This document shows positions 4,919 to 32,829 of a stretch of DNA of 32,980 nt, piece after piece. Below the pieces are notes generated by a model, which worked only from the letters and a program-made list of their open reading frames with translations, did not search any database and was not told where the DNA came from. Position 1 is the stretch's first letter, and each line of letters opens with the position of its first letter. The translations under genes and the position numbers were made by a program. This DNA comes from Fibrobacterales bacterium. Lineage in GTDB: Bacteria; Fibrobacterota; Fibrobacteria; Fibrobacterales; CADBQJ01. The DNA lies in the NCBI GenBank assembly GCA_017650365.1, contig JAGCEZ010000065.1:1-32980 (forward strand). The letters are read 5' to 3'.

Positions 4919-6598
4919 ATGCTGACTTTCCGTCCGTTCGTTTGCGCCTGTCTTCTTCTCCCCGCGTTCGTCTTCGCCCAGGCCGACACCGCGTCCAAGC
5001 CCGCGGCCCCGGCGCAGGCCGCCTCCTCCCCCTACGTCGTGAACGGCCGCCTCGACCTCGCGAAGCTCACCGCCCCCGACGGCAAGGAGATCGCCGACTA
5101 CGAGCTCCGCCGCTCGATCGTCAGCGACTCCGCCTTCCACCTGGAGCAGGAGATCGACCAGGTGCGCGAGAAGGTCGCCGAAAGCTACGCCCCGCTCTCG
5201 GCCCGGGGCGAGTTCGAGACCGCCGAGGAGTACGAGGCCCGCAAGAAGCAGTGGGAGGCCGGGCTCGAGGCGAAGATCGCCCCCGCGCTCGAGCCGCTGC
5301 GCGCCCGCCACGCCCAGCTCGTCGAGGCCGAGCAGACCATCTGGAGGAACCGCGGCGCGCTGGCCGGCAACCTCGAGCTCCGCTCGGTCCCGAAGGGCGC
5401 CGAAGTCTGGGCCGGGAACGACTCGCTCGGCATCACCCCGCTCAAGCTGAAGGAGATCCCGCCGGAGCCGGTGGAATACGTCTTCAAGCTCGAAGGCCAC
5501 CAGCCCTTCCACTACATCGTCGCGGCCGAGCCCGGCCGGTCCATCGACCGCCAGGTCGAGCTGATCGAGAACACGATCTACCCGCAGACCAGCGAGATCA
5601 ACATCTCCGAGCTGCTGCTGACCAACACCGACGACATCAACGAGTTCGAACGCCGCCTCACCGTGATCTCCGCGCGCCGCGAACGCGCGATCCAGGAGTA
5701 CGCCGACGTCCGCGACGGGATGCGCCGCGACTTCAAGGCTCCCGACCCCAAGGGCGAGTACGAGACGGCGCGCGAATACAAGAAGCGCGTGCAGGCGCAC
5801 CAGGACGAGCAGAAGGAGGCGCTGGACGAGCTCGAGCGCAGGCACAGGAAGTACCTGGAGAAGCTCGACAAGGGCGCGAAGATCCTGAAGGACTACATCG
5901 TCGCCTCGCAGGCCACGCTGCTGACGCTCGACGTGCCCGCGCACCTGGTGCAGATCGACCGCTACAACCCCGACAAGAAGAGCTTCGGCATCGTCGCCGA
6001 CTACGACCGCGGGCAGCACCGCTTCCACCTGAGCGGCGGCATCCCCATGCCGATCGACAGCGCGAAGAAGGTCTCGTGGGACCACGAGAACGTCAAGCTG
6101 ACGGTGCAGTACTACAACCTCGCCTTCGAGCAGGGCGGCTTCACCTGGTATCCCGCCTACGCCGGGGCCAAGGTGACGAACGACGGGAAGACCTATCCGG
6201 TCAACGCCGTCTTCCACCTCCCGAACGAGCTGACGCAGGACCCCGGCTACGCGCGCATCGCCGCGAAGCAGGACTCCCTCTCCTCCGGCAAGCTGAAGCC
6301 CGAGGGGCTGAACGCCACCGACCTCAAGAGCGCGTTCAACCCGGTCGAGGCGCTCCGTCCGACCAACTGGAAGATCCCGATCGCCGTCGCGCTGCTGGCC
6401 GTCGGCGTGGGCGGCGTGGTCTGGGGGCTCGTGGAGAACGCGGCCGTGGACGACGCCGCGGACATCAGCCCCTACGCCCCGCCCTCCAAGTACAAGAAGG
6501 CCAAGGACGACGTCGACTCCCACAAGACGATGCGGACCGTCGGCTACGCCGTCGGCGGCGCGGGCCTGCTCGCCGGAACCCTGGTTTTCTGCTTCTAG
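4919..6598 (+). CDS. Secreted PEGA-domain protein with C-terminal membrane helices
   Basis: A 559-residue protein with signal peptide (residues 1-20, ending VFA) and an Ala/Pro-rich stretch. One PEGA-type beta domain lies at about 151-215 (LELRSVPKGAEVWAGNDSLG ... TPLKLKEIP ... VFKLEGHQPF), a fold common in surface or envelope proteins that bind carbohydrate or protein. Two long helical, charge-rich regions flank it, each carrying the motif GE(F/Y)ETA-EY--R (about 98-109 and again near 280), an internal duplication. Two hydrophobic segments end the protein (about 486-504 and 541-559), the last nearly at the C-terminus. The function is unknown; an envelope-spanning structural role is a guess. 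The ATG at 4919 is chosen because the signal peptide follows directly; GAGG lies upstream. Confidence 0.85.
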   Translation: MLTFRPFVCACLLLPAFVFAQADTASKPAAPAQAASSPYVVNGRLDLAKLTAPDGKEIADYELRRSIVSDSAFHLEQEIDQVREKVAESYAPLSARGEFETAEEYEARKKQWEAGLEAKIAPALEPLRARHAQLVEAEQTIWRNRGALAGNLELRSVPKGAEVWAGNDSLGITPLKLKEIPPEPVEYVFKLEGHQPFHYIVAAEPGRSIDRQVELIENTIYPQTSEINISELLLTNTDDINEFERRLTVISARRERAIQEYADVRDGMRRDFKAPDPKGEYETAREYKKRVQAHQDEQKEALDELERRHRKYLEKLDKGAKILKDYIVASQATLLTLDVPAHLVQIDRYNPDKKSFGIVADYDRGQHRFHLSGGIPMPIDSAKKVSWDHENVKLTVQYYNLAFEQGGFTWYPAYAGAKVTNDGKTYPVNAVFHLPNELTQDPGYARIAAKQDSLSSGKLKPEGLNATDLKSAFNPVEALRPTNWKIPIAVALLAVGVGGVVWGLVENAAVDDAADISPYAPPSKYKKAKDDVDSHKTMRTVGYAVGGAGLLAGTLVFCF

Positions 6599-6605
6599 GA
6601 GACGC

Positions 6606-7220
6606 ATGATGAAGAACTTCGCAAGGATCATCGCTCCTCTCGCCCTCTTCGCGCTGGCCGCCGTCGCGACGGTCGCCTGCTCCGACCCCGAGATCGACCA
6701 CTACACCAACCCCGGCAGCGACGTCTACCTCGACAGGCTGCTCGGGATCGAGGGCGCCGGCGACAACGCCGACTCCGTCCTCTTCGCCATGGCGAAGTCC
6801 GTCGGCTGCTACTCGACCGCCAAGACCGACACGATCACGCCCCACGACACCGCGGGCGCGCTCGAATGCATGCGCGAGTGGCTCGAGGCCAACGAGGACT
6901 CGCTCCTGGCCGCCAACGCCCCCGCCTCCTCGGAGAAGGGGAGCAGCGCGAAGTCGTCCTCCGCCTCCGGCTCGTCCGACGAAGGGGAGTCCTCCGAGGG
7001 CGACGCCAGCTCCTCCTCCGATGAGTTCCCGGGCTACGACTGCGAGAACATCCTCGAATGGGAGCGCGGCGTCCCCGCCACGATGTACGAGGACGGGCTC
7101 TGCCACCACGAGGTGGAGGGCGCGGACTTCGTATTCGAATGCCTCGAGGAGACGATGTGCAAGTCGGTGACCCCGGGCACGAACATCTCCGTCTGGCGCG
7201 AAAAAGGCCCCTGCCGCTAG
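6606..7220 (+). CDS. Ser-rich linker lipoprotein, function unknown
   Basis: A 204-residue predicted lipoprotein with lipobox ATVAC ending at Cys25, followed by SDPE. A mostly acidic domain (about 26-104) is joined by a Ser/Glu/Gly-rich linker (about 107-139, runs such as SSSS) to a compact C-terminal domain rich in cysteine (Cys146, 166, 179, 185, 203) that may be disulfide-bonded. Poly-Ser linkers of this kind are typical of Fibrobacter secreted enzymes and binding proteins. No catalytic motif is recognised. It follows the PEGA gene by 7 bases with AGGAGA just upstream, so both are likely one operon. Two adjacent ATGs (6606 and 6609) are possible starts. Confidence 0.85.
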   Translation: MMKNFARIIAPLALFALAAVATVACSDPEIDHYTNPGSDVYLDRLLGIEGAGDNADSVLFAMAKSVGCYSTAKTDTITPHDTAGALECMREWLEANEDSLLAANAPASSEKGSSAKSSSASGSSDEGESSEGDASSSSDEFPGYDCENILEWERGVPATMYEDGLCHHEVEGADFVFECLEETMCKSVTPGTNISVWREKGPCR

Positions 7221-7252
7221 CCCTTTCCACCGCGCCCCCTCTTCCGCTTGGC

Positions 7253-7260
7253 TATCTTTC
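7253..7260 (+). promoter_or_regulatory. TAnnTTT-type promoter box before gatB
   Basis: GGCTATCTTTC stands 23 bases before the gatB start. It matches the box found before most operons in this window (TAtcTTTC against TAnnTTTG). No clear upstream box is seen at the expected distance. Confidence 0.55.
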
Positions 7261-7283
7261 TCCCGCCAGAAGCAGGAGAAAAG

Positions 7284-8759
7284 ATGGCCGACTGGAAGAA
7301 TGTCATCGGACTCGAAGTCCACGTTCAGCTCAAGACCAAGACCAAGCTCTTTTGCGCCTGTCCCGTGGAGACCGGCGCCCGCCCGAACAGCCACGTCTGC
7401 CCGGTCTGCCTGGGGATGCCCGGCGCTCTCCCGACGGTGAACGCCCAGGCGCTCGAATACGCCATCCGGCTCGGCCTCGCCCTGCACTGCGAAATCGACC
7501 CGCGCCCCATGTGGACGCGCAAGAACTACTTCTACCCCGACCTCCCCAAGGGCTACCAGGTCACCCAGACCGGCGGCCTGCCGTACTACGACCACCCCGT
7601 CTGCAAGAACGGCTGGCTCGACATCGAGCTGGAGGACGGGACGACCCGCCGCATCGGCATCACCCGAATCCACATGGAGGAGGACGCCGGCAAGCTGATC
7701 CACGACATGTCGCCCTCCGAGTCGCACTTCGACGCGAACCGCTGCGGCACGCCGCTCTGCGAAATCGTCAGCGAGCCCGACATCCGCACGGCCAAGGAGG
7801 CGGTCGCCTACCTGACCAAGCTCAAGCAGATCGTGGAGTACACGGGCGTGGGCGACGCCGACATGGAGAAGGGCAACCTCCGCTGCGACGCCAACATCTC
7901 GATCCGCCCGAGCGAGGACGCCCCCTTCGGCACGCGCGCGGAGATCAAGAACCTGAACAGCTTCACGCATCTGGAAAAGGCCGTCGAGGCCGAGCGCGAG
8001 CTGCAGATCGTCACGCTGGAGTCCGGCGGCGTCGTGGAGCAGTGCACCAAGCGCTACGACGTGGCCAACAACCGCACGATCGTCATCCGCACCAAGGAAG
8101 ACGCCTTCGACTACCGCTACTTCCCCGAACCCGACCTCCCGCGCCTGACCGTGACGCCCGAACTGGTCGAGAAGGTGCGCGCCTCGCTCCCCGAGCTCCC
8201 CGAGGACCGGCGGAAGCGCTTCGTGGACGCGCTCGGGCTGACCGCCTACGACGCGCGCGTGCTCTGCGCCGAAAAGCCCGTGGCCGACTGGTTCGAACGA
8301 GCCGCCGCGGCCTCGCCCAACCCGAAGCTGGTCGCGAACTGGATGATGACCGAGGTGCTCCGCGAGGCCCGCACGGGCGCGGACGGCGCGACGATCCCCG
8401 CGTCGCAGGGGCTTCCGAACCTCAAGTTCTCGCCCGAGCAGCTCGGCGAACTGGTCGCCCTCATCGAGAAGGGGACCATCTCCTCCAAGATCGCCAAGAC
8501 CGTCTTCGCGGAGATGGTCTCCGCGGGCGAATCGCCCGAGGCGATCGTCAAGGCCAAGGGGCTGGTGCAGGTGAGCGACGTCGGCGCCATCACGGAAGCG
8601 GTCCGCAAGGTCGTCGAGGCCAATCCCGCGCCGCTCGAGGCCCTGAAGGCCGGCAACGCCAAGCTCCGCGGCTTCTTCGTGGGCCAGGTGATGAAGGCGA
8701 TGGCGGGCAAGGGCAACCCCGCGCTGATCAACCAGGCCCTGGACGGCTTCCTGAAATAG
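7284..8759 (+). CDS. gatB: Aspartyl/glutamyl-tRNA amidotransferase subunit B
   Basis: GatB (491 residues) is the kinase/transamidase subunit of GatCAB, which converts misacylated Glu-tRNA(Gln) or Asp-tRNA(Asn) to the amide forms. The opening (VIGLEVHVQLKTKTKLFC) is the family signature. Two cysteine pairs, C24-A-C26 and C39-P-V-C42, match the zinc knuckle of GatB proteins that carry one. The family block MEEDAGKLIHD is present, and the C-terminal YqeY-like tail ends in GQVMKAMAGKGNP. Translation is set at 7284, not at the upstream 7248 codon, because AGGAG lies 5 bases before it and the homologous protein begins there. gatA and gatC are not nearby. A small membrane protein and birA follow closely. 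Confidence 0.96.
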   Translation: MADWKNVIGLEVHVQLKTKTKLFCACPVETGARPNSHVCPVCLGMPGALPTVNAQALEYAIRLGLALHCEIDPRPMWTRKNYFYPDLPKGYQVTQTGGLPYYDHPVCKNGWLDIELEDGTTRRIGITRIHMEEDAGKLIHDMSPSESHFDANRCGTPLCEIVSEPDIRTAKEAVAYLTKLKQIVEYTGVGDADMEKGNLRCDANISIRPSEDAPFGTRAEIKNLNSFTHLEKAVEAERELQIVTLESGGVVEQCTKRYDVANNRTIVIRTKEDAFDYRYFPEPDLPRLTVTPELVEKVRASLPELPEDRRKRFVDALGLTAYDARVLCAEKPVADWFERAAAASPNPKLVANWMMTEVLREARTGADGATIPASQGLPNLKFSPEQLGELVALIEKGTISSKIAKTVFAEMVSAGESPEAIVKAKGLVQVSDVGAITEAVRKVVEANPAPLEALKAGNAKLRGFFVGQVMKAMAGKGNPALINQALDGFLK

Positions 8760-8769
8760 CGGAGGGACC

Positions 8770-9099
8770 ATGCGCCGCGCCCGCCGGACCGCGTTCTTCG
8801 CAGCGCTCCTCCTCCTGGGGACGGCGCTCCCGGCCTCCGCGCGCGACATCGACTTCTCGCCCCTCGCGGGCGGCGGCGACCCCGACTCCATCTCGCAGGT
8901 CGGGGCCTGGGCCGAGGCCGAGCCCGGCGCCAAGGACTCCGTCTCCGAATCCGGCGGCCTGGCCGTCGAGACGAAGAAGGACCCGCCGAAGTACATCCAG
9001 CGCGACTTCGACCACAAGGAACAGGTCGTCGTCGGAAGCGCCATGATGGCCTGCCTCGCGCTGATCATGGTGACGATGAACAACTACAACCCCAAGTAG
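8770..9099 (+). CDS. Small exported protein with one C-terminal membrane helix
   Basis: A 109-residue product with a basic start (MRRARR), a hydrophobic signal segment and likely cleavage after ASA (residue 24). A Gly/Asp/Ser-rich acidic region follows, then a hydrophobic segment at about 87-103 near the C-terminus. GGAGGG lies 5 bases upstream of the ATG. It is 10 bases from gatB and one base from birA, so it is probably transcribed with both, yet nothing connects it functionally to tRNA amidation or biotin. No family is recognised. Confidence 0.75.
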   Translation: MRRARRTAFFAALLLLGTALPASARDIDFSPLAGGGDPDSISQVGAWAEAEPGAKDSVSESGGLAVETKKDPPKYIQRDFDHKEQVVVGSAMMACLALIMVTMNNYNPK

Positions 9100-17117: not shown

Positions 17118-17342
17118 TTCAGCGGCGCGGACTACCACGGCTTCACGGCGCTGCCGGCAGGCTACTTCGACGGCCCGGAACTGGTGAAGAAGGGCGCCGG
17201 AACGGCGTTCTGGTCCGCCACGGAGTCCTCGGGGAACGCCGACAAGGCCTACGGCCTGCGCATGAGCGCCGCGGACGACAAGACGCCCGTGGCGGCCTTC
17301 GACAAGTTCTCGAAGCTCTCCGTCCGCTGCGTCCAGGACTGA
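17118..17342 (+). pseudogene. Remnant of a Fibrobacter major paralogous domain protein (C-terminal 74 residues)
   Basis: Between the ilvC terminator and the leuB promoter an open stretch without a start codon translates to 74 residues ending in TGA. The pattern GFTALPAGYFDG, FWSATESSGNADKAYGLRM and a final KLSVRCVQD matches what I know of the C-terminal end of the Fibrobacter succinogenes major paralogous domain (TIGR02145 type: GFSALP-G, WSATE, SVRCVKD). The rest of the gene is gone and no ribosome site is seen. It fuses upstream, in frame, into the ilvC terminator, so it appears truncated at or near that terminator. It is thus a decayed relic of a secreted/surface protein. This also accounts for most of the 370-base gap between ilvC and leuB. 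Confidence 0.75.
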
Positions 17343-18488
<1,146 letters not shown>

Positions 18489-18508
18489 CCCCGACTCGAA
18501 AAACGCAA

Positions 18509-18536
18509 AAAAGAGGCTCCGCGAGGGGCCTCTTTT
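18509..18536 (+). terminator. Rho-independent terminator after leuB
   Basis: AAAAGAGGC (18509-18517) pairs with GCCTCTTTT (18528-18536) around a 10-base loop, 20 bases after the leuB stop. Flanking AAACGC and GCGTTT can extend the stem. Confidence 0.85.
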
Positions 18537-18627
18537 CGCGTTTCCGGCCGCTGCGGGGCAGGGGAGCCGCGCGATGCGCAAAAGGCGAAAAGGATTGAAA
18601 AAACGCGAATTTTGTCGTTTTTCGCTC

Positions 18628-18658
18628 TTGCGGTGGTATGTATCCCTTTCTATACTTC
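18628..18658 (+). promoter_or_regulatory. Putative promoter of the seven-gene lipoprotein operon
   Basis: The 100 bases upstream of the first lipoprotein are strikingly AT-rich. A TTG (18628-18630) is followed after 20 bases by TATACTTC (18651-18658), a TAnnTTTG-like box with one deviation. The leader to the chosen ATG would be about 60 nt, the longest clear leader among the promoters proposed here apart from the mfd-internal one. Confidence 0.5.
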
Positions 18659-18726: not shown

Positions 18727-20121
18727 ATGCGTATCGCCAAAACCCTCGCCGCCTTCGCCGGCATGGCCTTGTTCTTCGCCTGCTCCGACGACACCACCAC
18801 CGTCAAGGTGGACGCCACGGACGAATCCAAGACGCTCGCCGACGTCGCGTTCAACACGCTCGCGGCCTACGACAACGAGCTCCTCGACTCGGTCGTGGTG
18901 GTCGAACTCGACTCCAAGGCCAAGCAGGTCTCCAAGAACGGCCGCGTGCTCTTCGAAGGGCTCACCCCCGGCGAACATCTCTTCCGCGTCTCCAAGAACG
19001 GCTACGCCGACCTGATCGTGACGGTCTCGATGGACCACGACGCCTCCTCGCCCGACATGCCGATCCTCCGCGACGAAGTGCGGACGGTCCACATGTACCG
19101 CGCCGGCCTGACGGTCAAGGGCCAGGTCCGCCGCGAAATGGCGGACGAAACGCACGCCGCGGCCGAAAACGCCAACGTGCTCCTGATCCCCGACGCGCCT
19201 CTGGAAGGCGAATGGGCGACGACCTCCTACGCCGCCGTCACCGACAAGAAAGGGTTGTACGAATTCACCGACATTCCCGAAATCGCGGAATACACCGTGA
19301 CGGTCGAAGTCCACACCGACGCCCAGGGCCGCACCTGGTACCCCGCCGACGTGATCAACGCCGAACACGCCCCCTCCGACCTGGTCGACACGCTGACCGC
19401 GGTCATCCTCACCCACGACAAGCCCAAGTACGTCATCGACCGCACCAACTACGCCACGCTCGGCGAAAAGGAAGCCTTCAAGGTGACCTTCTCCAACCCG
19501 GTCGACACCGTCTTCACCGTCAAGAACCCCCCGGTCGTCGCCAACCTGACGCAGGACGACACCGTCGCCGTCACCTGGAAGTGGTCCGCCGACGGCCACG
19601 TCCTCTCCGTCTCGCCCCTCTCGGGCCAGTGGCACCTCACCGACGAATACATGCTGCACGTCAACGGCTACGTCGACGCCTACGGCCAGGACCTGACCGA
19701 CTCGACCAAGTTCTGGGTCCCCTCCGCCGGCAAGCTGAGCAAGGTCTCCTCCTTCGCGCTCGACAGCGCCTTCTCCTCCACCGTGCTCTTCGACAACGAC
19801 CACCGCGAAGACGAGGACGACTGCCTCAGCGACACCGTCCAGGTCTTCTTCTTCTCCTGGAAGACCCAGAAGACGGCCGAAAAGTTCCGCCTCTACGTGC
19901 AGAAGGCCGACCGCAACGACTACACGCTGCTCGACGAAATCGACGTCGCCTCCGCGGACGACGACGGCAACCACAGCTACGTCTTCGACGCCGTGTTTTC
20001 CGGCATCGACGTCTTCTCCGACAAGGACGGCAACGTGAAGTTCGCGGTCGTGCCCTGCCAGGACCTCGAATGCCTGGCGATCTCCAAGGAAGCGGTGATC
20101 AGCCGCAACGTCTGCGACTAG
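18727..20121 (+). CDS. Tandem paralogous lipoprotein 1 of 7
   Basis: A 464-residue lipoprotein, lipobox LFFAC (Cys19) followed by SDD. It shows the plan shared by all seven. There is a linker with ESK (33-35). A first beta domain spans about 36-115 (LLDSVVVVE, KNGRVLFEGL-PGEHLF, NGYADL), of PEGA/carboxypeptidase-regulatory type. A second spans about 125-200 (VKGQV, TDKKGLYEFTDIPE). A SbsA-type Ig-like region spans about 245-330 (FKVTFSNPVD, WKWSADGHVLSVSPLSGQW). A C-terminal FN3-like module spans about 335-464 (FFSWK, FRLYVQK, LLDEID). Cysteines 366, 444, 449 and 463 are the conserved set. The ATG at 18727 has AGGAG at the right spacing; one at 18718 is too close to it. It heads the operon. 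A surface-structural or adhesive role is inferred. Confidence 0.9.
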   Translation: MRIAKTLAAFAGMALFFACSDDTTTVKVDATDESKTLADVAFNTLAAYDNELLDSVVVVELDSKAKQVSKNGRVLFEGLTPGEHLFRVSKNGYADLIVTVSMDHDASSPDMPILRDEVRTVHMYRAGLTVKGQVRREMADETHAAAENANVLLIPDAPLEGEWATTSYAAVTDKKGLYEFTDIPEIAEYTVTVEVHTDAQGRTWYPADVINAEHAPSDLVDTLTAVILTHDKPKYVIDRTNYATLGEKEAFKVTFSNPVDTVFTVKNPPVVANLTQDDTVAVTWKWSADGHVLSVSPLSGQWHLTDEYMLHVNGYVDAYGQDLTDSTKFWVPSAGKLSKVSSFALDSAFSSTVLFDNDHREDEDDCLSDTVQVFFFSWKTQKTAEKFRLYVQKADRNDYTLLDEIDVASADDDGNHSYVFDAVFSGIDVFSDKDGNVKFAVVPCQDLECLAISKEAVISRNVCD

Positions 20122-20140
20122 CCGAAGGAGGAACGACAAG

Positions 20141-21493
20141 ATGAACGCCAAATTCCTCGCATTCGGATGCGCCGCCGCCCTCGTGGCGGGCTGCGCGGAC
20201 GACACGACCAGCATCGACTCCCGCGAAGAGTCCAAGACCTCCGCCTCCGTGGCAATCCACGTGGCCGAGATCTTCGACGGCTCCAAGCTCGACTCCGTCT
20301 CCGTCCTCGACATGGGGACCAACGAGAAGAAGACGACCAAGGACGGCCGCGCGGACTTCCGCGAAATCTCCAACGGCGACCACGCCTTCCTTTTCTCCCG
20401 CGAAGGCTACGCCACGCTTCTCCTCGACTACGCCGTGAACCTCGACGGCGCCGCGGCCGCGCTCCCGATCGAACGCGACGAGGCTCCCGTCGTGAAGATG
20501 CACCGCATGGGCGCCCAGGCCACCGGCCTGGTCAAGTTCCAGCTGGCCGACGGCTCTCTGGTCCCCGCCGCGAATCAGACCGTGACGCTGTCGGCCGCTC
20601 CGGCCGCCGGCGAGTTCGTTCCCAACATCTACAGCGCCGAAACCGACAGCACCGGCCGCTATCTCTTCGACGACCTCCCCGAACTCAGCACCTGGGGCGC
20701 CACCGTGATCAACCCGGTGACCGAAGACGCGCTGGTCTGGCGCGCGAACGCCGTCGTCGGCGGCAACATCGTGCAGGGGCAGCTCCAGACCCTCAAGCAG
20801 ATCGTCCTCGCCCCCGACACCGGCCGCGCCGCGGTCGACAGCGTGACCTGGCATCTGGGCCTGAAGGATCCCTTCGTCGTCTGGTTCTCCGATCCGGTCG
20901 ACCTCTCCCGCGCCAAGTACGACGCGAACTCGGTCAAGCTCTACAACAGCTCCGAAGGCGGCGCCCTGATCGGGATTTCGCTCTCCTGGAGCAAGGACGC
21001 GCGCAAGCTGACCGTCTCGCCCGCCTCCGGCAGCTGGGAATACAGCGACACCTACGATTTCGAGTTCAACCTGACCTCCGTCCAGGGCAGGAAGTTCCCC
21101 GCCAACGTCTCCTACGAGGTCAAGAACGTCTCCAGCCTCGCCAAGATCACCGGCCTGAAGATCGTCTCCGCGCTCAGCGAAAACGACAACCCCTCCTGGA
21201 ACGGCGACGAAGACGATCCCTGCGTCGAGGACACCACGAGCACCATCGCGCTGGAATACGTCCCCGGCAAGGGCACGATCGCCGAGGCGTTGGTCTACGT
21301 GCAGAAGGACAACGGACTGTTCAAGTACTCCACGAGCGCCTACGACGGCGACACCTCGGTCGCCGTCACGGTCGACCTGCAGGACATGCCCGTCAAGCCC
21401 GCCTCGATTTCCGTCTACCTGCAGCCGTGCACCGACGCGGCCTGCCTGCCGTTCGACAAGAAGAACATCTACACCATTCCGGTCTGCGAATAG
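20141..21493 (+). CDS. Tandem paralogous lipoprotein 2 of 7
   Basis: 450 residues, lipobox VAGC (Cys18) then ADD, ESK motif at 30-32. The first beta domain carries KLDSVSVLD and KDGRADFREISNGDHAF with REGYATL. The second has AQATGLVKFQLADGSLVPAA and TDSTGRYLFDDLPE (168-181), the clearest copy of this Cna-B/carboxypeptidase-regulatory signature. The Ig-like region is at about 243-328 (WFSDPVDLSRAKYDANSVKL, SWSKDARKLTVSPASGSW). The final module has Cys361 in CVEDTTSTI and Cys430, 435 and 449. It begins 19 bases after paralogue 1 behind AAGGAGGAA. Confidence 0.9.
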   Translation: MNAKFLAFGCAAALVAGCADDTTSIDSREESKTSASVAIHVAEIFDGSKLDSVSVLDMGTNEKKTTKDGRADFREISNGDHAFLFSREGYATLLLDYAVNLDGAAAALPIERDEAPVVKMHRMGAQATGLVKFQLADGSLVPAANQTVTLSAAPAAGEFVPNIYSAETDSTGRYLFDDLPELSTWGATVINPVTEDALVWRANAVVGGNIVQGQLQTLKQIVLAPDTGRAAVDSVTWHLGLKDPFVVWFSDPVDLSRAKYDANSVKLYNSSEGGALIGISLSWSKDARKLTVSPASGSWEYSDTYDFEFNLTSVQGRKFPANVSYEVKNVSSLAKITGLKIVSALSENDNPSWNGDEDDPCVEDTTSTIALEYVPGKGTIAEALVYVQKDNGLFKYSTSAYDGDTSVAVTVDLQDMPVKPASISVYLQPCTDAACLPFDKKNIYTIPVCE

Positions 21494-21508
21494 CTGGAGG
21501 CGAGAACC

Positions 21509-22978
21509 ATGAAAAAACTGCTTTCGCTGCTCATCCTCTCGGTTCTTCCCTTCGCCATCGGCTGCTCCGACGACGTCTCCACGACCGGCGCCGAAGAGAC
21601 CGACGCCAAGGCCCGCGTGACCTTGGTCGTCCGGGGCGTCGACAACTCCCTGCTCGACTCCGTCAAGGTGGTCGAACTGGCCTCCAAGGCCAGGAAGACC
21701 ACCAAAAACGGCCGCGCGATGTTCGACGACCTCTCGGTCGGCCAGCACCGCTTCACGCTTTCCCGCGACGGTTATGCCACGCTGATCGTCGACGTGGACG
21801 TCGCCGTGGACGCGGCGACCGCCTCGATGGACGAAACGGCGATTGTCCGCGACCAGGACCACATCGCCGTGCACATGAGCCGCGCGACGGCCTCCGCCCG
21901 CGGCCGCGTGCTGCGCGACGGCGCCTCCGTCGGCGAAGTCTCCACGCTGGTCCCCGTCAAGGGCGCGACCGTGCACCTCTACGCCGAGCCCGTTATGAGC
22001 GGACGTCCCGGTCTCGACCAGTTCGGCCACCCCTTCTACCACTACGAAACGACGACCGACTCCGACGGCGTCTACCTCTTCGAAGGCCTGCCCGAGGTCG
22101 CGTCCTATTCCGCCAAGGCCGAACACCGGATCGACCTCGAACACGTCTGGCGCGCGTCCGCCGTGAAAAACGCCAGCGTCCTGCTGGACGACGGCGTCGA
22201 GGTCTTCGAGGACATGGTTCTCGCGCTCGACCTCAAGGCCTCCGACGACTCGCTGATTCTGGTCTCCGACAACGTCTCCGGTCGCTACCTCGCCCCGTCC
22301 GATTCCGTCGTCCTGGTCTTCAACCGAAAGATCAACAAGGACGACCAGTGGGTCTCCACCTTCTCCGTCTATACGATGGACGGCGGCATGCGCGAGATCG
22401 CGACGACCGCCGCGGTCGACGGCAACAGGATCGTGGTCAAGCCCGCGCTGGGGACCTCCTGGCGGAACAACAGCTGCTACGCCCTCGTGCCCGCCGACAT
22501 CGAGGACCAGGTCGGCCTCAAGTACGTTCTGTCGCTGCCGCAGCTGCCCTCCTTCTGCGTGCTGAAGGAGTCCGCCGTCGCCGGGTTCGAGTTCGACTCC
22601 GCCTTCACGGCGACTCTCGAAGACGCCTACAACGACAACGACTGCCTGAAGAAGAACGCGGCTTTCGCGCGCTTCAACTGGACTCCCTCCGCGAATCCGG
22701 GCGAGCCCGTGGTCGGCGTCTACGAACTCTACGTCTCGAAGAACGAAGGCAAGGACTTCGTCCTGGACCAGACGATCAACATGGCCGAAGGCGACACGCT
22801 GGTCACGGCGACCGTCGATCTCGACCCCGCGACGCTCGACGTCGACAAGGTCGCTTTCCAGGTCCGCACCTGCATGAAGTTCTCCGGAACGTTCTTCGGC
22901 GCCCTGGGCCTGGTGTCCGCCGACCCCTGCGGCGCGTTCCTCAAGAAGGCCGTCGAACTGGACGTCTGCGACGACTAA
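21509..22978 (+). CDS. Tandem paralogous lipoprotein 3 of 7
   Basis: 489 residues, the longest member. Lipobox AIGC (Cys19) then SDD; the ESK motif has changed to TDAK. The first beta domain is well kept (LLDSVKVVELASK, KNGRAMFDDLSVGQHRF, RDGYATL). The second carries an insertion before TTTDSDGVYLFEGLPE (181-196). The Ig-like part is divergent, around VVLVFNRKINKDD, and includes two extra cysteines (323 and 350) that could pair. The C-terminal cysteines are 379, 455, 474 and 487, with a hydrophobic insertion between the second and third. It starts 15 bases after paralogue 2 with GGAGG upstream. Confidence 0.9.
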   Translation: MKKLLSLLILSVLPFAIGCSDDVSTTGAEETDAKARVTLVVRGVDNSLLDSVKVVELASKARKTTKNGRAMFDDLSVGQHRFTLSRDGYATLIVDVDVAVDAATASMDETAIVRDQDHIAVHMSRATASARGRVLRDGASVGEVSTLVPVKGATVHLYAEPVMSGRPGLDQFGHPFYHYETTTDSDGVYLFEGLPEVASYSAKAEHRIDLEHVWRASAVKNASVLLDDGVEVFEDMVLALDLKASDDSLILVSDNVSGRYLAPSDSVVLVFNRKINKDDQWVSTFSVYTMDGGMREIATTAAVDGNRIVVKPALGTSWRNNSCYALVPADIEDQVGLKYVLSLPQLPSFCVLKESAVAGFEFDSAFTATLEDAYNDNDCLKKNAAFARFNWTPSANPGEPVVGVYELYVSKNEGKDFVLDQTINMAEGDTLVTATVDLDPATLDVDKVAFQVRTCMKFSGTFFGALGLVSADPCGAFLKKAVELDVCDD

Positions 22979-22990
22979 GGAGTGACGGAC

Positions 22991-24373
22991 ATGCGCTCTA
23001 AACTCTTTCTCTTCGCCGCGGCGCTGGGGGGCCTGCTTCTGGCGGGCTGCTCCGACGAGCTGACGGTAAAGGGCAACGACGAGTCGAAAGAGACGGGAAC
23101 GGTCGCGTTCGAAGTCCGCTCCGTCTTCGGCGGCGAATGGCTGGACTCCGTCGTCGTCCGCGACCTCCTTTCCGGCAAGAAGATCTCCACGAAGGAGGGC
23201 CGCGCGGTCTTCTCGGGCCTGCCCGTGGGCGAACGCCGGTTCACGTTCGAAAAGGAGGGCTACGCCACGCTGATGTTCCGCACGGAGGTGGCCCTCGACA
23301 CCCTCTCGCCCGACCTCCCCGTCGCGCGCGACCAGGACGTCGTCGTCGAGCTGCCCAGGCTCGGCGCGAAGGTCGTCGGCCGCGTCTATGCGCAGGAAGC
23401 GGAGCAATACGACAAGGAGGCGGTCCTCGGACCGGCGAAGAACGCCTCGGTGCATCTCCGCGTCTGGACGACGACGGGATGGCTGATGCCCTACGAATAC
23501 GAAGCCAGGACCGATTCCGCCGGCTGGTACGAGTTCGACGACCTGCCCGAATTCGGCGACAGCACCGAGATCTACATCTCCACCGCGGACAATCCGGTCT
23601 ACGACGGCAAGCGGCGATATCCGGCCTCTCTCTCGGAATACCCGAACATCCTCCCGGGCGAGACCTATCGCGTGGCGGACCTCTACGCCTACCGGGAAAC
23701 CGCCACTCGCGTCGCGCCGATCTCCACGAACTTCGCCGACGGCGTCGTGCGCGCCGACATGCCGTTCGAGATCCTCTTCTCCGAACCGGTCGACACCGCC
23801 GCGCACTGGCTCAACCGGTTCGAAGTCTATGACTCCTACTTGAGCAACAGAATCGCCGTCGCGGTTTCCTGGAGCGACGGCGGACGGAAGCTCTCCATCC
23901 GTTCCGCGACCGGAAAATGGACGGAAGGGAAGACTTACGAACTCGAACTCCGGGCGTACACGGCCGAAGGCGTCGAGATGGAGTTCAATGCCGATGTCTA
24001 CGTGGCCTACAGCGCGGAAATCGCCGCCGCGAAGGGGCTGGAAATGCTGAGCGCGGTCGACGCCATGGCCGCCGATTCGTGGGACGACGCCGCGAAGTGC
24101 CTGAAGCCCTCCACGAGCACGATCTACCTCGCCTGGAACAAGCCGAAGAACGCCGAGACGATCTTCCATCCCGCCTACCGCGTGGACGGCCTGGAGGACT
24201 TCGTCCTCTTCGACGAAATCCGGGGCGACACGGCGGTCGCGGTCGACGCCACGGCCTTGCCGAACCTGGCGGCGCGCAAGTCCGTCACGTTCGCCGTCCA
24301 GGCGTGCACCGAGCTCGAATGCGTTCCCGCCTCGGCGGGCAAGTCGCTCAAGCTCAATATCTGCGAACCCTAG
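22991..24373 (+). CDS. Tandem paralogous lipoprotein 4 of 7
   Basis: 460 residues, lipobox LAGC (Cys20) then SDE, ESK at 31-33. The first beta domain has WLDSVVVRDLLSGKKISTKEGR and FEKEGYATL, the second RTDSAGWYEFDDLPE. The Ig-like region has ILFSEPVDTAAHWLNRFEVY and SWSDGGRKLSIRSATGKW. The last module keeps Cys370 in CLKPSTSTIYLAW and Cys439, 444 and 458. The start is set at ATG 22991, since AAGGAG (22977-22982) is 8 bases before it. A GTG at 22982 would overlap that site. This member has more aromatic residues in the second domain than the others. Confidence 0.9.
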   Translation: MRSKLFLFAAALGGLLLAGCSDELTVKGNDESKETGTVAFEVRSVFGGEWLDSVVVRDLLSGKKISTKEGRAVFSGLPVGERRFTFEKEGYATLMFRTEVALDTLSPDLPVARDQDVVVELPRLGAKVVGRVYAQEAEQYDKEAVLGPAKNASVHLRVWTTTGWLMPYEYEARTDSAGWYEFDDLPEFGDSTEIYISTADNPVYDGKRRYPASLSEYPNILPGETYRVADLYAYRETATRVAPISTNFADGVVRADMPFEILFSEPVDTAAHWLNRFEVYDSYLSNRIAVAVSWSDGGRKLSIRSATGKWTEGKTYELELRAYTAEGVEMEFNADVYVAYSAEIAAAKGLEMLSAVDAMAADSWDDAAKCLKPSTSTIYLAWNKPKNAETIFHPAYRVDGLEDFVLFDEIRGDTAVAVDATALPNLAARKSVTFAVQACTELECVPASAGKSLKLNICEP

Positions 24374-24384
24374 GGAGGAACGAA

Positions 24385-25773
24385 ATGCGCAAGAAACTGC
24401 TCCTTCCGCTTCTCGCCGCCTTCGCCGGGCTGACCGTCTCCTGCTCCGACGAAACCGCGGCCTCCTGGTCCGAGGAATCCAAGACCAAGGGCCACGTCGT
24501 CTTCGACATCCGCTCGCTGCACGACGGCTCCCTCCTCGACTCCGTCGTCGTCGTCGAACGGGCCTCCGGAACCAGGCGCGTCTCCAAGAACGGCCGCGTC
24601 CTCTTCGAGGAACTCGATCCCGGCGAGCTGGCGTTCGTCTTCGAGCGCGAAGGCTACGCGTCGCAATGGCGGGTCTTCTCCGTCGACCTCGACGCCGTTC
24701 CGACCGACCCCATGATCGTCCGCGACGACGCCAAGACCGTGCGGCTGCACCGCACGGGCGCGCAGTTCGCGGGGCTGGTCAAGCGCCAGCGGTACGACGG
24801 AACGCTCGTCCCCGAGGCCGGCGTCCGCGTGATGCTGCACGCCGAGGCCGAACAGGGCGGCTTCCTTCCCGAAGTCTACGAGACGACGACCGACTCCGCC
24901 GGCGCCTATCTCTTCGACGACCTGCCCGAGCTGGCCAAGGTGGTCGAACTGCGCACCGACTTCGTCGTCGACGGCGAACTGCTCTGGGGCATGGATCCCG
25001 TCGAGGACAGCACCATCCTCCTCGACTACCTGGGCGAGAAGATCGTCCGGGCCGAGCCGCTGGTGCTCGAACCGCGCGACGCCGACGTCCTCCATCCGCT
25101 CTCGGCGAACTGGGACGGCCTTGTCGCCAAGGACACGCTGAAGATCCGCTTCTCGCATCCCGTGAAGACGGCCGCGCCAGACCTGGACGCCGGCTCCGTC
25201 GCCGTGTACAACATGACGGACGGCTGGACCGAGGTCGCGGTCGTCCTCTCCTGGAGCAAGGACCGCAAGACGCTGAACGTCGTCCCCGCCTCCGGCGGCT
25301 GGAACGTCGAAAAGCGGAACGACTACACAATCCATCTCGCCTTGACCGCCGACAACGGCAGCTCCTACGACGACTGGCTCGCCTTCCACACGACCTACAA
25401 CACCGCCGCGCTCTCCGCGCTGAAGGGGCTGAAGGTCGCCGAGGCGTTCAGCGAAAACGGAGTCTCGTCGCTCGGCTCCAAGTGCATCGCCGACACGACC
25501 GCCGAGGTAAAGCTGACCTGGACCGCGCAGCCCAAGGTGGAATACTACCGCGCGGCGTTCCGCCTCGTCGGAAGCGACGATCCGCAGTTCGTCCTGCTCG
25601 ACTCGCTCGCGAGCGACGTCGACTCGGCGTTCGTCTACGTGAACTACTGGACGACCTATCCGATCGAATCCAAGGTCTCGAAGGTGCAGTTCGCGGTCGT
25701 TCCGTGCAACCGGCGCGAATGCCTCTCCTACGAGGCTTCCGACGCGCTGACGCTGTCGATCTGCAAGAACTAG
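24385..25773 (+). CDS. Tandem paralogous lipoprotein 5 of 7
   Basis: 462 residues, lipobox TVSC (Cys20) then SDE, with EESK following. The first beta domain reads LLDSVVVVERASG, SKNGRVLFEELDPGELAF, REGYAS. The second reads FAGLVKRQRYDGTLVPEAGV and TTTDSAGAYLFDDLPE. The Ig-like region has IRFSHPVKTAAPDLDAGSVA and SWSKDRKTLNVVPASGGW, the same SWSKDRKTL string as in paralogue 7. The C-terminal module has CIADTTAEVKLTW and cysteines 441, 446 and 460. Its start lies 11 bases after paralogue 4 with GGGAGG before it; the upstream open frame from 23917 is only an overlap in another frame. Confidence 0.9.
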   Translation: MRKKLLLPLLAAFAGLTVSCSDETAASWSEESKTKGHVVFDIRSLHDGSLLDSVVVVERASGTRRVSKNGRVLFEELDPGELAFVFEREGYASQWRVFSVDLDAVPTDPMIVRDDAKTVRLHRTGAQFAGLVKRQRYDGTLVPEAGVRVMLHAEAEQGGFLPEVYETTTDSAGAYLFDDLPELAKVVELRTDFVVDGELLWGMDPVEDSTILLDYLGEKIVRAEPLVLEPRDADVLHPLSANWDGLVAKDTLKIRFSHPVKTAAPDLDAGSVAVYNMTDGWTEVAVVLSWSKDRKTLNVVPASGGWNVEKRNDYTIHLALTADNGSSYDDWLAFHTTYNTAALSALKGLKVAEAFSENGVSSLGSKCIADTTAEVKLTWTAQPKVEYYRAAFRLVGSDDPQFVLLDSLASDVDSAFVYVNYWTTYPIESKVSKVQFAVVPCNRRECLSYEASDALTLSICKN

Positions 25774-25784
25774 GGGGACGGAAC

Positions 25785-27227
25785 ATGAAACTCGGAAAAC
25801 TTCTGCTCTCCCTCGCGTTCCTCCCGGCGCTGCTCGACCTCTCCGGATGCTCCGAGCAGACCACGTACGACAAGTCCGACGAGTCGAAGGAACGGGGCCG
25901 CGTCTCGGTCAACGTCGTCGACGCCTCGGGCAATCTCCTCGACTCGGTCCAGGTGACCGAACTCCAGGGGAACAAGGTCAAGATCTCGAAGAACGGCGTC
26001 GCCACCTTCGACGACCTCACCGTGGGCACGCACCGCTTCCGCTTCCAGCGCGAAGGCTACGCCGCCGTGGAAGGCGAAATCGAGGTGGTTCTCGACGACC
26101 ATTCGGCGCAGCTGCCCGAACTGACCGTCGCGCGCGACAACGCGCACATCGTCTCGATGCACCGCCTCGGCGTCTCCGCGACGGGCAAGGTCGTCCGCCA
26201 GGTCTACGGCGGCGACTTCGAACCGGCCGCCGGCGTCGTCGTGGACCTGCGGCCCGGCGCGGTCAAGACCTCGAGCTTCGGCGGCGAGTTCTTCGTCCGC
26301 CACTACTTCGCGACGACCGACGAGAACGGCGTCTACCGCTTCGACGACCTCCCCGAATGGACCGCCTACGCCGTCTCCGCGCGCCCGACGGTCTTCGACG
26401 GGATGGAATTCCTCTCGCCGACGGTCACCGAAGAGGCCTGGCTCCTCTCCGAGACCGCCGTCGCGATGCCCCGCCTCGACATGACCGAACGCGAAGGCTC
26501 CGCCCTGCTCTCCTTCTCCGAAACGATCGAATCGGCGACGCAGCCGCAGGTCGTCCGCTTCAGCCGTCCCGTCTCCTTCCGGAAGGAATCGTCTTCCTCG
26601 CCCGAGGCGGTCGTCTGCGAGGACTACGGCCTGAACGATTCGTTCGCCAACAACATCGTCGTCAACGCCTCCTGGAACGCCGACTCGACGGTGCTTTCGA
26701 TTCTTCCCGCCTCCGGCTCCTGGACGCTGGGCTCCGCGTATGATTGCGAAGCCACCTATTCCACGCTCGCCGGCGACGACGTCGACATGGACATCTACTT
26801 CGAGATCGGAACGACGGAGAAGAGCTGGGAAATCGTTCCGCTGAAGGGGCTGGCGCTCGACTCGGCCTGGAGTTCCAACGGCGTCTACTCCTGGATCGGC
26901 GACTCCTGCCTGGCGGACACCACCTCGACAGTCCGGCTGCGCTGGGACGCCGACAAGAACCACTACGCGTACAGAATCTACTGGCGAATCGACGCCGGGG
27001 ACGTCTTCGAATACGAGACCAACAACGCCTACGGCCGCGATTCCCTGTGGACCTACTCCGGCAGCGGATACGACCAGTTCTTCACGTACGATTTCTACAG
27101 CAACGGCCCGGCCGAGAAGGTGACCTTCTACGTGGCGCCGTGCAAATACACCTGGCTTCCCGACGAACCCTTCTGCGCGCCGATCGACCTGAAGAAGGGC
27201 GTTGTCCTGCCCGCCTGCGAGGACTAG
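25785..27227 (+). CDS. Tandem paralogous lipoprotein 6 of 7
   Basis: 480 residues, lipobox LSGC (Cys22) then SEQ, the only one with no Asp at +3; DESK follows. The first beta domain reads LLDSVQVTELQGNKVKISKN and REGYAAV, the second TTDENGVYRFDDLPE. The Ig-like region contains a Ser-rich insertion (ESATQPQVV ... KESSSSPEA) and two additional cysteines. The C-terminal module has CLADTTSTVRLRW and cysteines 453, 464 and 478, with a longer spacing between the middle pair and several extra Tyr residues (SGSGYDQFFTYDFY). It starts 11 bases after paralogue 5; the ribosome site GGGGG is the weakest of the set. Confidence 0.9.
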   Translation: MKLGKLLLSLAFLPALLDLSGCSEQTTYDKSDESKERGRVSVNVVDASGNLLDSVQVTELQGNKVKISKNGVATFDDLTVGTHRFRFQREGYAAVEGEIEVVLDDHSAQLPELTVARDNAHIVSMHRLGVSATGKVVRQVYGGDFEPAAGVVVDLRPGAVKTSSFGGEFFVRHYFATTDENGVYRFDDLPEWTAYAVSARPTVFDGMEFLSPTVTEEAWLLSETAVAMPRLDMTEREGSALLSFSETIESATQPQVVRFSRPVSFRKESSSSPEAVVCEDYGLNDSFANNIVVNASWNADSTVLSILPASGSWTLGSAYDCEATYSTLAGDDVDMDIYFEIGTTEKSWEIVPLKGLALDSAWSSNGVYSWIGDSCLADTTSTVRLRWDADKNHYAYRIYWRIDAGDVFEYETNNAYGRDSLWTYSGSGYDQFFTYDFYSNGPAEKVTFYVAPCKYTWLPDEPFCAPIDLKKGVVLPACED

Positions 27228-27237
27228 GAGGAAAAAG

Positions 27238-28587
27238 ATGAAGCGCTCTGCCTGTTTTTCGTCCCTGCTCCTCTGCGGCGCCGCGTTCCTGTTCCTCGTC
27301 TCGTGCGCCGACGGCGAGGAGTACGGCGTCCGCGCCCGCGAAGAGTCCAAGACCACCGGGACGATCAGCCTCTACTTCTACCAGGAGCCGGAGGTCGACG
27401 CCCCCGTCGACTCGGTCGAAGTGGTGGAACTGGCCTCGAAGAAGAAGGTCTATTCCAAGAACGGCCTCGCGAAGTTCTCCGACCTCCCCGTTGGGGCGCA
27501 CCGCTTTTCGGTGAAACGCGACGGCTACGTGCCGTTCTACGCCGACATCGACCTGATCCTCGACGGCACCACGCCGAACGTCCCGATCGTCTCCGACCTC
27601 GCGAAGTACTACGGGCTCTTCCGCACGGGCGGCGTCCTCGTCGGGAAGGCCTACCACGGCGACGCGCCGGTCGACACCGTCTTCTCGCCCTTCGCCGGCG
27701 CGAAGGTCGTCGTGGAGAATCTCGACCTCGGCTGCGCCCCCTGCGAGCCGCTTGAACCCTGGCGCGACACCGCCGTCGTCGATTCCGACGGCGTCTACGC
27801 GTTCATGGGGCTTCCCGCCACCGCCGTCGTCACGCTGCGCCTCGCCCCGCACGACGACGGCGAACTGCGCTACGACGACGACACCGCGTTCGCCGAAGTG
27901 CCCCGGGAAGGCGACACCTCGTGGGTCGAAGACCTGCTGGCCAAGCTCCAGGCCGCCAAACTGCGCCTGATCTCGACGAACGCCCTCGCGATCGAAGACA
28001 CGACGGCGCTGAAGCTGACCTTCGACCGCACGGTCACCGAATACGTGCACATCACGCGGTCCATCCTCGTCACGCGCAAGGGCGGCGTGGGCCCCGTCGG
28101 CGTCGAGATCTCCTGGAGCAAGGACCGCAAGACGCTCTCCATCGCCCCCTCTTCCGGACGCTGGACCTCGATGGCCGAATACAAGGTCGAGTACGACCTC
28201 TGGGACGCCGCCGGCGGCCGCGACGCCGAACTGACCTTCGTCCCCGTCGGCACCGCGCTCAAGGCCCCGACCGGCCTCGCGCTCGACAGCGCCTACCTGG
28301 GCGGCACGTCGAAGTGGAACAAGAAGTGCGTCGAACGCGACGCCGACGAGCTCTACTTCTCGTGGAAGAAGGTGGACGGCGCGAACAGCTACCGCGTCTT
28401 CCTCGCCGACGAAGAGGACGTGGACTTCAACTTCGAGACCGAAGTCGCCGACCCCGAATTCGCCATCCTCGGCCCGCTGATGTTCGCGATCCGCGACCAG
28501 CTCTGGCTGCAGGTGATGGCCTGCGACGAAAAGGGCAACTGCGGCCCCTTCGCCAAGGAGCGGCTGACGATCAAGGCCTGCGACTAG
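27238..28587 (+). CDS. Tandem paralogous lipoprotein 7 of 7
   Basis: 449 residues, lipobox LVSC (Cys23) then ADG, with EESK following. The first beta domain reads PVDSVEVVELASKKKVYSKN and RDGYVPF, the second carries GCAPCEP, an extra CxxC-spaced pair, before DSDGVYAFMGLP. The Ig-like region has LTFDRTVTEYVHITRSILVT and SWSKDRKTLSIAPSSGRW. The final module has CVERDADELYFSWKK and cysteines 429, 435 and 448. The ATG at 27238 has AGGAGG 8 bases before it and begins a normal signal peptide; the longer frame from 27202 lies in paralogue 6. A strong terminator ends the operon behind it. Confidence 0.9.
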   Translation: MKRSACFSSLLLCGAAFLFLVSCADGEEYGVRAREESKTTGTISLYFYQEPEVDAPVDSVEVVELASKKKVYSKNGLAKFSDLPVGAHRFSVKRDGYVPFYADIDLILDGTTPNVPIVSDLAKYYGLFRTGGVLVGKAYHGDAPVDTVFSPFAGAKVVVENLDLGCAPCEPLEPWRDTAVVDSDGVYAFMGLPATAVVTLRLAPHDDGELRYDDDTAFAEVPREGDTSWVEDLLAKLQAAKLRLISTNALAIEDTTALKLTFDRTVTEYVHITRSILVTRKGGVGPVGVEISWSKDRKTLSIAPSSGRWTSMAEYKVEYDLWDAAGGRDAELTFVPVGTALKAPTGLALDSAYLGGTSKWNKKCVERDADELYFSWKKVDGANSYRVFLADEEDVDFNFETEVADPEFAILGPLMFAIRDQLWLQVMACDEKGNCGPFAKERLTIKACD

Positions 28588-28609
28588 CGGGCCTCCGAAA
28601 GGGAAAAAG

Positions 28610-28640
28610 AGAGCCTCCCGGGATCCGGGAGGCTCTTCTT
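28610..28640. terminator. Bidirectional terminator between the lipoprotein operon and dapA
   Basis: AGAGCCTCCCGG (28610-28621) pairs perfectly with CCGGGAGGCTCT (28625-28636) around a GAT loop. A T-rich tract follows on the plus strand, and on the minus strand CTCTTTTTCCC follows, so both converging transcripts can stop here. Confidence 0.9.
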
Positions 28641-31437: not shown

Positions 31438-32829
31438 CTAGTACCCGCAGCCCGTGGACTTGGAGCGCGAGTCGCTCACTCCGAGCTTCGAGAGATACTG
31501 GCCGTAGTAGGTCTCGCGGGCCTGCGCCTGCGTGCCGTAGTTGCCGCCGCACTCGATGCCGCCGTTGATGATCCTGGTGGTGGCGCCGAAGCCGGTGTTC
31601 CAGAAGGCCTGGTCGCAGCCGCGGTCCCACCAGAACCAGAAGGAGGTGGCGAAGGCCAGCCAGCCCTCGCGCGCCACGCGGTCGGGGTCGTTGAGCAGCA
31701 CGCTCTTGTCGCCGAAGAAGAATTCCGAGGCGGGTCCGTAGTTGCCGGGCCAGGAGATCTGCTTGGCCCCGCGGCCGTAGTAGTACTTGCCCGGGACCGC
31801 CTCGTAGCCGCCGCCCCACGATCCGCTGTAGTTGGCCGCGCAGGAGCCGTTCGCGCCGCAGATCTCCTCCACGTAGTAGAGGTCGGCCACCTCCTGCTTC
31901 CAGTGCGCGAAGACCGCCGCCATCTCCTGCTTCTGGCGGGCGACGTCGGAGCCGGCGCTCGCGCAGACGAAGTTGGGCACCTTTCCGAGCGCCTCGACGA
32001 AGGCGGCCCAGGTGTAGACCGGGTTGCGGTTGGGGAAGTAGCTCTCGAACATCGATTCGGTGAACCATTCCAGGATGCAGTGCGAGGCGCCCGAGGAGGC
32101 CGAGGAGGCGCCGGAGGCGCTGCTGGTCGGCGCGGCGCTCGAGGTGCGGACAACCGAGCTGTAGCCAGCGAAGGAGGAGAGCGGCTCGCCGGTGTAGATC
32201 GTCACCTTCTCGACCAGCGTGGAGTCGATGTTAGGTCCGCGCCACGGGTCTCCGGCGATGGCGAGGTTGTGGAGGTCGCCCGTGACGCCGTCGGGGTTCA
32301 TCAGGTGCGCGCCCACCTGGATGCGCGCGTCGCAGTCGTAGCCCTGCGGGACGATCCAGTCGCCGGCGAAGAATTCGAGCACGCCGCCTTCGGTCCAGCC
32401 GCGGACCATCGCGGCGTTGTTGTAGCCGATGTAGTCGGTTTCGAACTTGAAGTACGCGTCGGGGACCAGTGTGCGGATGCATTCGCCGATCTGGTAGGAC
32501 GACGAGGAGCGTTCCGCTTCGGACGACGAGACGTCGTAGACGGGCTCTTCGCCGAAGGGACGGTTTTCCGAGGCGCCGACGGAGCAGTAGTGGCGGGCCA
32601 GCGCCGTCGAGTCGGCGGTTCCGGTCGCGGAGTCGATCGGGAAGAGTTCCCAGAGGTCCTCGTTGAGCTCGCGGTATCCGGTGGCGGAGAAGTTCGACGG
32701 CAGCGGCGAGACCGGATCGGAGTCGCAGTCGTCCTTCTTCGGGCCGCTGCCGTCGTCGGAGCAGGAGGCGAGGGCGAGCAGGGCGCAGAGGGGGAACAGA
32801 ACGAGGGCGCGGTTCGTTTTCATGGTCAT
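31438..32829 (-). CDS. Lipoprotein with a GH19 chitinase/lysozyme-type domain
   Basis: A 463-residue lipoprotein; lipobox LASC (Cys23) then SDD. An unrecognised N-terminal half (about 24-225) contains one Ser-rich stretch (101-111) and a second linker (about 224-248, repeated SSAS). The C-terminal 215 residues are a GH19 domain: FPNRNPVYTWAAFVEAL (264-280), the equivalent of the helix with the catalytic acid (E313 in FAHWKQE), a second acid at E321/E322, YYGRGAKQISWPGNYG (350-364), LLNDPDRVA and TRIINGGIECGG (417-428). GH19 enzymes cleave chitin or, in some, peptidoglycan. The usual HETTGGW around the first acid is changed to KQEVADL, so activity is uncertain. ATG at 32823 is an alternative start. 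No strong ribosome site. Confidence 0.88.
   Translation of the reverse strand: MTMKTNRALVLFPLCALLALASCSDDGSGPKKDDCDSDPVSPLPSNFSATGYRELNEDLWELFPIDSATGTADSTALARHYCSVGASENRPFGEEPVYDVSSSEAERSSSSYQIGECIRTLVPDAYFKFETDYIGYNNAAMVRGWTEGGVLEFFAGDWIVPQGYDCDARIQVGAHLMNPDGVTGDLHNLAIAGDPWRGPNIDSTLVEKVTIYTGEPLSSFAGYSSVVRTSSAAPTSSASGASSASSGASHCILEWFTESMFESYFPNRNPVYTWAAFVEALGKVPNFVCASAGSDVARQKQEMAAVFAHWKQEVADLYYVEEICGANGSCAANYSGSWGGGYEAVPGKYYYGRGAKQISWPGNYGPASEFFFGDKSVLLNDPDRVAREGWLAFATSFWFWWDRGCDQAFWNTGFGATTRIINGGIECGGNYGTQAQARETYYGQYLSKLGVSDSRSKSTGCGY

Follow-up and report, generated by a model that had tools for sequence, protein, structure and literature searches.

In Bacteroidota, lipoproteins are sent to the cell surface when the lipidated cysteine is directly followed by a polar and then by acidic residues; the export signals are SDDDD in B. 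fragilis and SDDFE in F. johnsoniae (PMC5080379). In Staphylococcus aureus, the lpl cluster of the nuSa-alpha island gathers many paralogous lipoprotein genes in the same orientation; these copies, which presumably shuffle, have kept a common core (PMC4470592). Paralogous surface proteins are also invoked for attachment in Fibrobacter succinogenes, in the form of its fibro-slime and type IV pilin adherence proteins (PMC3079729). Finally, strings of CnaB/Ig/FN3-like beta domains make up Gram-positive pilins of the BcpA/SpaA type and FN3 beaded proteins. The locus that we describe here recalls each of these systems: in a 32,980-nucleotide stretch (contig JAGCEZ010000065.1, hereafter the window) from a member of the Fibrobacterales that has a small genome and is related to Fibrobacter, a degrader of fibre in the rumen, seven paralogous genes in the same orientation encode lipoproteins built of such beta domains, most of them with acidic residues after the lipidated cysteine. 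Our preferred reading, to which we give a probability of roughly 0.55, is that they are lipid-anchored rods, displayed at the surface, which differ in their distal tips and serve attachment or docking. The locus touches on the question of how relatives of Fibrobacter hold their substrate without cellulosomes.

The array, its flanks and its putative transcription signals

Seven consecutive lipoprotein genes of 449–489 codons each occupy positions 18727-28587 of the window on the + strand; leuB precedes them, and the convergent dapA and then pgm follow. The features are as follows:

18508..18545, + strand, terminator-like hairpin with a T run after leuB (direct sequence reading: aaaagaggctcc-gcga-ggggcctctttt)
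18628..18656, + strand, promoter-like TTGCGG-N17-TATACT in the gap between leuB and copy 1 (found by eye; under the scan threshold)
18727..20121, + strand, copy 1, lipoprotein of 464 aa, mature N-terminus CSDDTT
20141..21493, + strand, copy 2, lipoprotein of 450 aa, mature N-terminus CADDTT
21509..22978, + strand, copy 3, lipoprotein of 489 aa, mature N-terminus CSDDVS
22991..24373, + strand, copy 4, lipoprotein of 460 aa, mature N-terminus CSDELT
24385..25773, + strand, copy 5, lipoprotein of 462 aa, mature N-terminus CSDETA; all-beta AlphaFold model
25785..27227, + strand, copy 6, lipoprotein of 480 aa, mature N-terminus CSEQTT
27238..28587, + strand, copy 7, lipoprotein of 449 aa, mature N-terminus CADGEE; most diverged; all-beta AlphaFold model
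28609..28637, strand not assigned, bidirectional terminator-like hairpin of 13 pairs between the array and convergent dapA

All seven genes come with a purine-rich, Shine-Dalgarno-like sequence and a lipobox, and none has an internal stop; the gaps between genes are, in order, 19, 15, 12, 11, 11 and 10 bp. Re-reading of the sequence bore out the initial annotation as to the seven tandem genes, their coordinates, lengths and gaps, and as to there being no enzyme gene within the array. The hairpin at 18508..18545 separates leuB from the array, and a sigma-70 promoter scan returned zero sites above threshold. The seven genes presumably form one independent transcription unit. Just one tandem repeat, a trivial one, lies inside the array. 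Its GC content (64–67%) and GC3 (0.88–0.94) are close to those of the neighbouring genes, values that lend no support to horizontal acquisition.

This layout bears on the possibility that the seven proteins are not independent binders but together build one heteromeric assembly at the surface, such as a fibre, scaffold or coat, whose subunits are translated in fixed proportions from a shared mRNA. A single operon with gaps of 10–19 bp and a terminator-like hairpin on both sides would suit such an assembly, as would the retention of seven intact copies at 25–33% identity; on the other hand, each copy carries its own lipid anchor, and the array contains no usher, sortase, pilus motor or donor-strand feature. 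We consider a heteromer unlikely.

Other parts of the window also hold envelope-type genes. The ORFs at 4919-9046, which follow surA and an ABC ATPase gene, are poorly characterised: they include, besides a protein of 559 aa that carries a PEGA domain, a lipoprotein of 203 aa (CSDPEID) and an ORF of 662 aa for which neither Pfam nor NCBIfam gives a match. At about 17201-17345 (+ strand), in the gap between ilvC and leuB, the reading ...FWSATESSGNADKAYGLRMSAADDKTPVAAFDKFSKLSVRCVQD* looks by eye like the C-terminus of a FISUMP (Fib_succ_major) protein. The window's pgm is 88% identical over 302 residues to that of a rumen contig labelled Fibrobacter succinogenes (L066; RUG14205) and, because of this identity, the window's genus is probably a rumen lineage that has been filed under the F. 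succinogenes name.

Age, architecture and divergence of the copies

With copy 5 as the query against the genome's own 2.08 Mb assembly, the other six copies are matched at E = 1e-24 to 1e-66, so that we judge the homology of the seven to be far beyond chance. The same search found no copy outside the array, and a wider mixed profile recovered the same seven. The mature proteins are 25–33% identical in pairs and share 33 invariant alignment columns. In a tree of 72 proteins, in which they were set against 65 Fibrobacterota homologues, the seven copies form one clade (support 99/93), within which copy 7 branches first and copy 3 next. Because of this single clade and the low pairwise identity, the seven are an old, lineage-specific tandem expansion from one ancestor. 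We rejected recent amplification and gene conversion, of which there is no sign: the longest exact DNA word common to two copies is 28 bp, and in other pairs it is 12–20 bp. The proposal that the copies are old and strongly diverged, and not a fresh amplification, is thus upheld by the tree, the all-against-all comparison and the lack of long identical DNA words alike.

The genus is represented by just one further genome, G041, whose single copy lies beside dapA and pgm, in an orientation relative to dapA that is opposite to that of the array. We considered this copy as a direct sister of the array; the tree does not contain that grouping, which is rejected at p = 0.012, a value to be read as unsure given long end branches (>1 change per site) and composition. 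The simplest history would be repeated tandem duplication at an old dapA-side locus in this lineage, followed by long divergence.

The copies might instead serve to raise the dosage of one protein, or be neutral remnants of duplication, without any division of labour; the identical domain order of all seven speaks for this. Yet dosage copies would stay alike and neutral copies would decay, and we see identities of just 25–33% with 33 invariant columns, zero broken copies and no long identical DNA tracts, which makes this explanation very improbable.

The initial annotation assigned one architecture to all seven proteins, including conserved cysteines near the C-terminus, and this holds: the lipobox is followed by an ESK linker, a pair of CarboxypepD_reg/CnaB-like domains, an Ig region of the SbsA/Big_5 type and, last, an FN3-like end. 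Pfam matches CarboxypepD_reg in all seven copies (over the curated cut-off in copies 1, 3 and 6 and under it in the others), with two such stretches in each of several copies. Among the seven, the SbsA/Big_5-type region has a weak match in copy 7 only (E = 0.14); in homologues, this third region is a Big_5 (SbsA-type Ig) domain that passes the Pfam cut-off, and the fourth region resembles, under the cut-off, FN3 and GH85_C/Ig-type beta domains. The lipobox is present in all seven, and the linker, described as ESK in every copy, is of that type in six and reads ETD in copy 3; most relatives are alike in both respects. The distal (C-terminal) domain has four cysteines in all seven copies, a feature that is absent from most relatives, some of which, G041 included, have one pair only. 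The four would probably form two disulphides, stabilising the domain outside the cell.

Neither Pfam nor NCBIfam has a model of the whole protein, and no copy has an NCBIfam match over the cut-off. The Pfam scans of the seven copies revealed no CBM, and we found no known binding site; nor is there a catalytic domain of a carboxypeptidase or peptidoglycan enzyme, the Pfam matches being to a non-catalytic, regulatory-like beta domain only. A sequence search against solved structures gave no homologue. Copies 5 and 7 were modelled with AlphaFold (pLDDT 70 and 76), both from the same seven-row alignment; the two models are all-beta with the same domain and strand order, and not the unrelated folds that would have spoken against a common architecture. 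Foldseek matches these models to beaded-domain surface proteins: BcpA pilin, bacterial adhesin extender repeats, SiiE, Aureispira GhpA and fibronectin. Because whole-length TM-scores are about 0.15–0.25, these model-based matches are indicative of a class of fold, not of a family. Against viral models, Foldseek returned generic Ig/FN3 phage tail-type proteins only, which are uninformative.

Divergence is not uniform along the protein. From the base outwards, pairwise identity within the array is 41, 33, 24 and 25% for domains 1–4, whereas equally deep single-copy homologues give a flat profile (35, 38, 34 and 32%). Division of labour in the outer half would leave such a gradient. The signal is modest, because one clade of single-copy orthologues has a gradient (72 to 44%) that is nearly as steep; specialisation of the copies, with the different ligands that the initial annotation proposed, is therefore a suggestion.

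A phylum-wide family and its neighbourhoods

Of 168 Fibrobacterota genomes, 81 contain the family according to a profile built from the seven copies; they are spread over several families of the phylum, and the matches go down to E = 2e-60 over nearly the full model. Homology is full-length, over about 430 positions. Most of these genomes have 1–4 matches each. The initial annotation saw no recognised system here. That stands insofar as the proteins belong to no named system and are covered by no curated family model; what the annotation overlooked is that they belong to a lipoprotein family found across Fibrobacterota. This family has no name, the array's peculiarity is its copy number, and the sevenfold operon is the family's largest tandem expansion among the genomes searched.

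In the neighbourhoods that we inspected, family members never stand more than two in a row; such a pair typically combines a short form with a long one that has additional beta domains at its C-terminus. In three Fibrobacteraceae genomes (G056 C49, G057 C144 and G145 C70; loci L046, L041 and L047), the long member has 722–742 aa and extra FN3-like repeats; this pairing is kept across genera. Its conservation would favour a heteromeric assembly, against which it must be set that one copy suffices in most relatives.

The neighbourhoods of 20 relatives reveal no fixed operon partner. They are mixed, and some are housekeeping (cysS, IF-2); in two loci a GH5 cellulase lies beside the family gene, and in another its neighbour is a VWA/InlB-repeat protein. 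As a separate observation, the array's own genome has three further tandem lipoproteins of 297, 349 and 396 aa with CSDGG/CGDDSS starts (L124 7826-11068; G000 contig 12); these have no informative Pfam or NCBIfam match, the Pfam scan having covered two of the three.

The own genome has 2 fibro-slime, 1 GH9 and 1 GH5 matches, compared with 5–10, 8–12 and 11–14, respectively, in three Fibrobacteraceae genomes; its FISUMP matches number 35. Given this scarcity of fibro-slime, GH9 and GH5, cellulose does not suggest itself as a ligand. Four F. succinogenes S85 lipoproteins with this type of domain, which may or may not belong to the array's family, were lower, not higher, on cellulose (PMC6851124).

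Proposed surface display and comparison with known systems

We scored the N-termini for [small/polar]-[D/E]-[D/E] directly after the lipidated cysteine (+2 to +4), in 527 kb of the own genome that yielded 43 lipoprotein candidates, six of them array members; copy 6, which the lipoprotein filter had missed, was added to the count by hand. The LES-like start, C-[S/A]-D-[D/E], occurs in five of the seven copies, copies 6 and 7 falling outside the motif, and in 7 of 37 other lipoproteins (Fisher p = 0.011, for a signal that was defined in another phylum, in Bacteroides/Flavobacterium). Many family members in other genomes are also outside the motif. Acidic N-termini also occur elsewhere among the genome's lipoproteins, in a GDSL esterase, a CE2 esterase, FISUMP proteins, the GH19 chitinase encoded near the window's end and some unassigned proteins; those that we checked are mostly expected to act outside the cell. 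This last point, together with the enrichment in the array, supports, but does not prove, the view that the acidic motif may mark Fibrobacterota surface lipoproteins, the array among them. To our knowledge, no lipoprotein export signal has been experimentally assayed in Fibrobacterota. Surface display, as first proposed, is something that we still infer, now with the LES-like N-termini of five copies in its favour.

The own-genome lipoprotein N-termini form two sets, one acidic (C[SG]DD) and one non-acidic (CASS, CAKG), which by analogy suggests that Fibrobacterota might use a lipoprotein export signal like that of Bacteroidota. The window itself encodes, at 31438-32823 (- strand), a lipoprotein (CSDDGSGPKKDD) in which Pfam recognises a GH19 chitinase domain (E = 4e-19); it is probably a chitinase, or an enzyme like lysozyme, that is displayed on the surface.

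The proteins could alternatively be lipoproteins of the outer or inner membrane that face the periplasm and act within the envelope in structure, as chaperones or in signalling. Surface export in Fibrobacterota is unproven, single-copy relatives sit in ordinary, changing neighbourhoods, and proteomics of S85 put lipoproteins of this domain type in a peptidoglycan group, apparently by domain name alone (PMC6851124). Against this weigh the LES-like N-termini and four-cysteine distal domains, a layout that resembles extracellular beaded proteins, and divergence that is fastest at the membrane-distal end; we regard a periplasmic role as rather unlikely.

For the preferred attachment or docking rods, we envisage the following. 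Seven paralogous outer-membrane lipoproteins would be made from one transcription unit and, after Lol sorting, the LES-like acidic N-terminus would lead to export to the outer face of the outer membrane. Each copy would stand off the membrane as an elongated beta-rod, its conserved base holding it in the envelope and its diverged outer half binding a surface; plant, microbial or host glycans or proteins are likely targets. The cell would thus present seven different attachment or substrate-docking proteins side by side. In favour of this reading we count the architecture and homology of the copies, the beaded-domain fold class, the LES-like starts and the kinds of protein that share acidic N-termini, the GH5 and VWA/InlB-repeat neighbours in relatives, the steeper divergence towards the tip, and the genome's few standard Fibrobacter fibre-degrading tools. 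Against it stand the copies and relatives that depart from the motif, the lack of a CBM or known binding site in the scans, the mixed neighbourhoods, the similar gradient in one orthologue clade and the S85 values on cellulose. Location at the surface, the ligands and the specialisation of the copies are what we infer from the sequences. A bolder extension, which we think unlikely, is that the array forms an attachment kit peculiar to this lineage and free of cellulosomes: lipid-anchored beta-rods, seven of them displayed together and each with its own tip, would have taken over adhesion where fibro-slime and GH5/GH9 proteins are few, possibly as one heteromeric surface layer.

The locus is of interest as a sevenfold expansion of a nameless, phylum-wide family in a genome where the customary adherence and cellulase genes are few. 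It hints at use of a Bacteroidota-like lipoprotein export signal by Fibrobacterota, and it offers a defined set of proteins for expression, localisation and binding screens.

The array's closest counterparts are its Fibrobacterota relatives, with 2x CarboxypepD_reg/Big_5/FN3, which have the same lipobox, ESK/EAK linker and domain order; these mostly occur as 1–4 copies, with at most two in tandem at inspected loci and some with extra FN3-like repeats, whereas the array has seven copies and a four-cysteine distal domain of its own. Five of its copies resemble Bacteroidota LES lipoproteins in the small or polar and then acidic residues after the lipidated cysteine (PMC5080379), here a putative export signal; the array belongs to another phylum and has no SusC/TonB-dependent partner. 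The lpl copies of S. aureus share a core and are thought to shuffle (PMC4470592); the array's copies are old and lack long common tracts, come from an unrelated organism, and match no curated lipoprotein family model in NCBIfam. Fibro-slime proteins, for their part, carry PA14/fibro-slime domains, unlike the array. Gram-positive pilins are sortase-linked, whereas the array's proteins are lipid-anchored at the N-terminus, and the structural likeness is at the level of class (TM-score about 0.25 or below). The array brings no new mechanism; it is a good new example of tandem surface-lipoprotein arrays, a kind already known.
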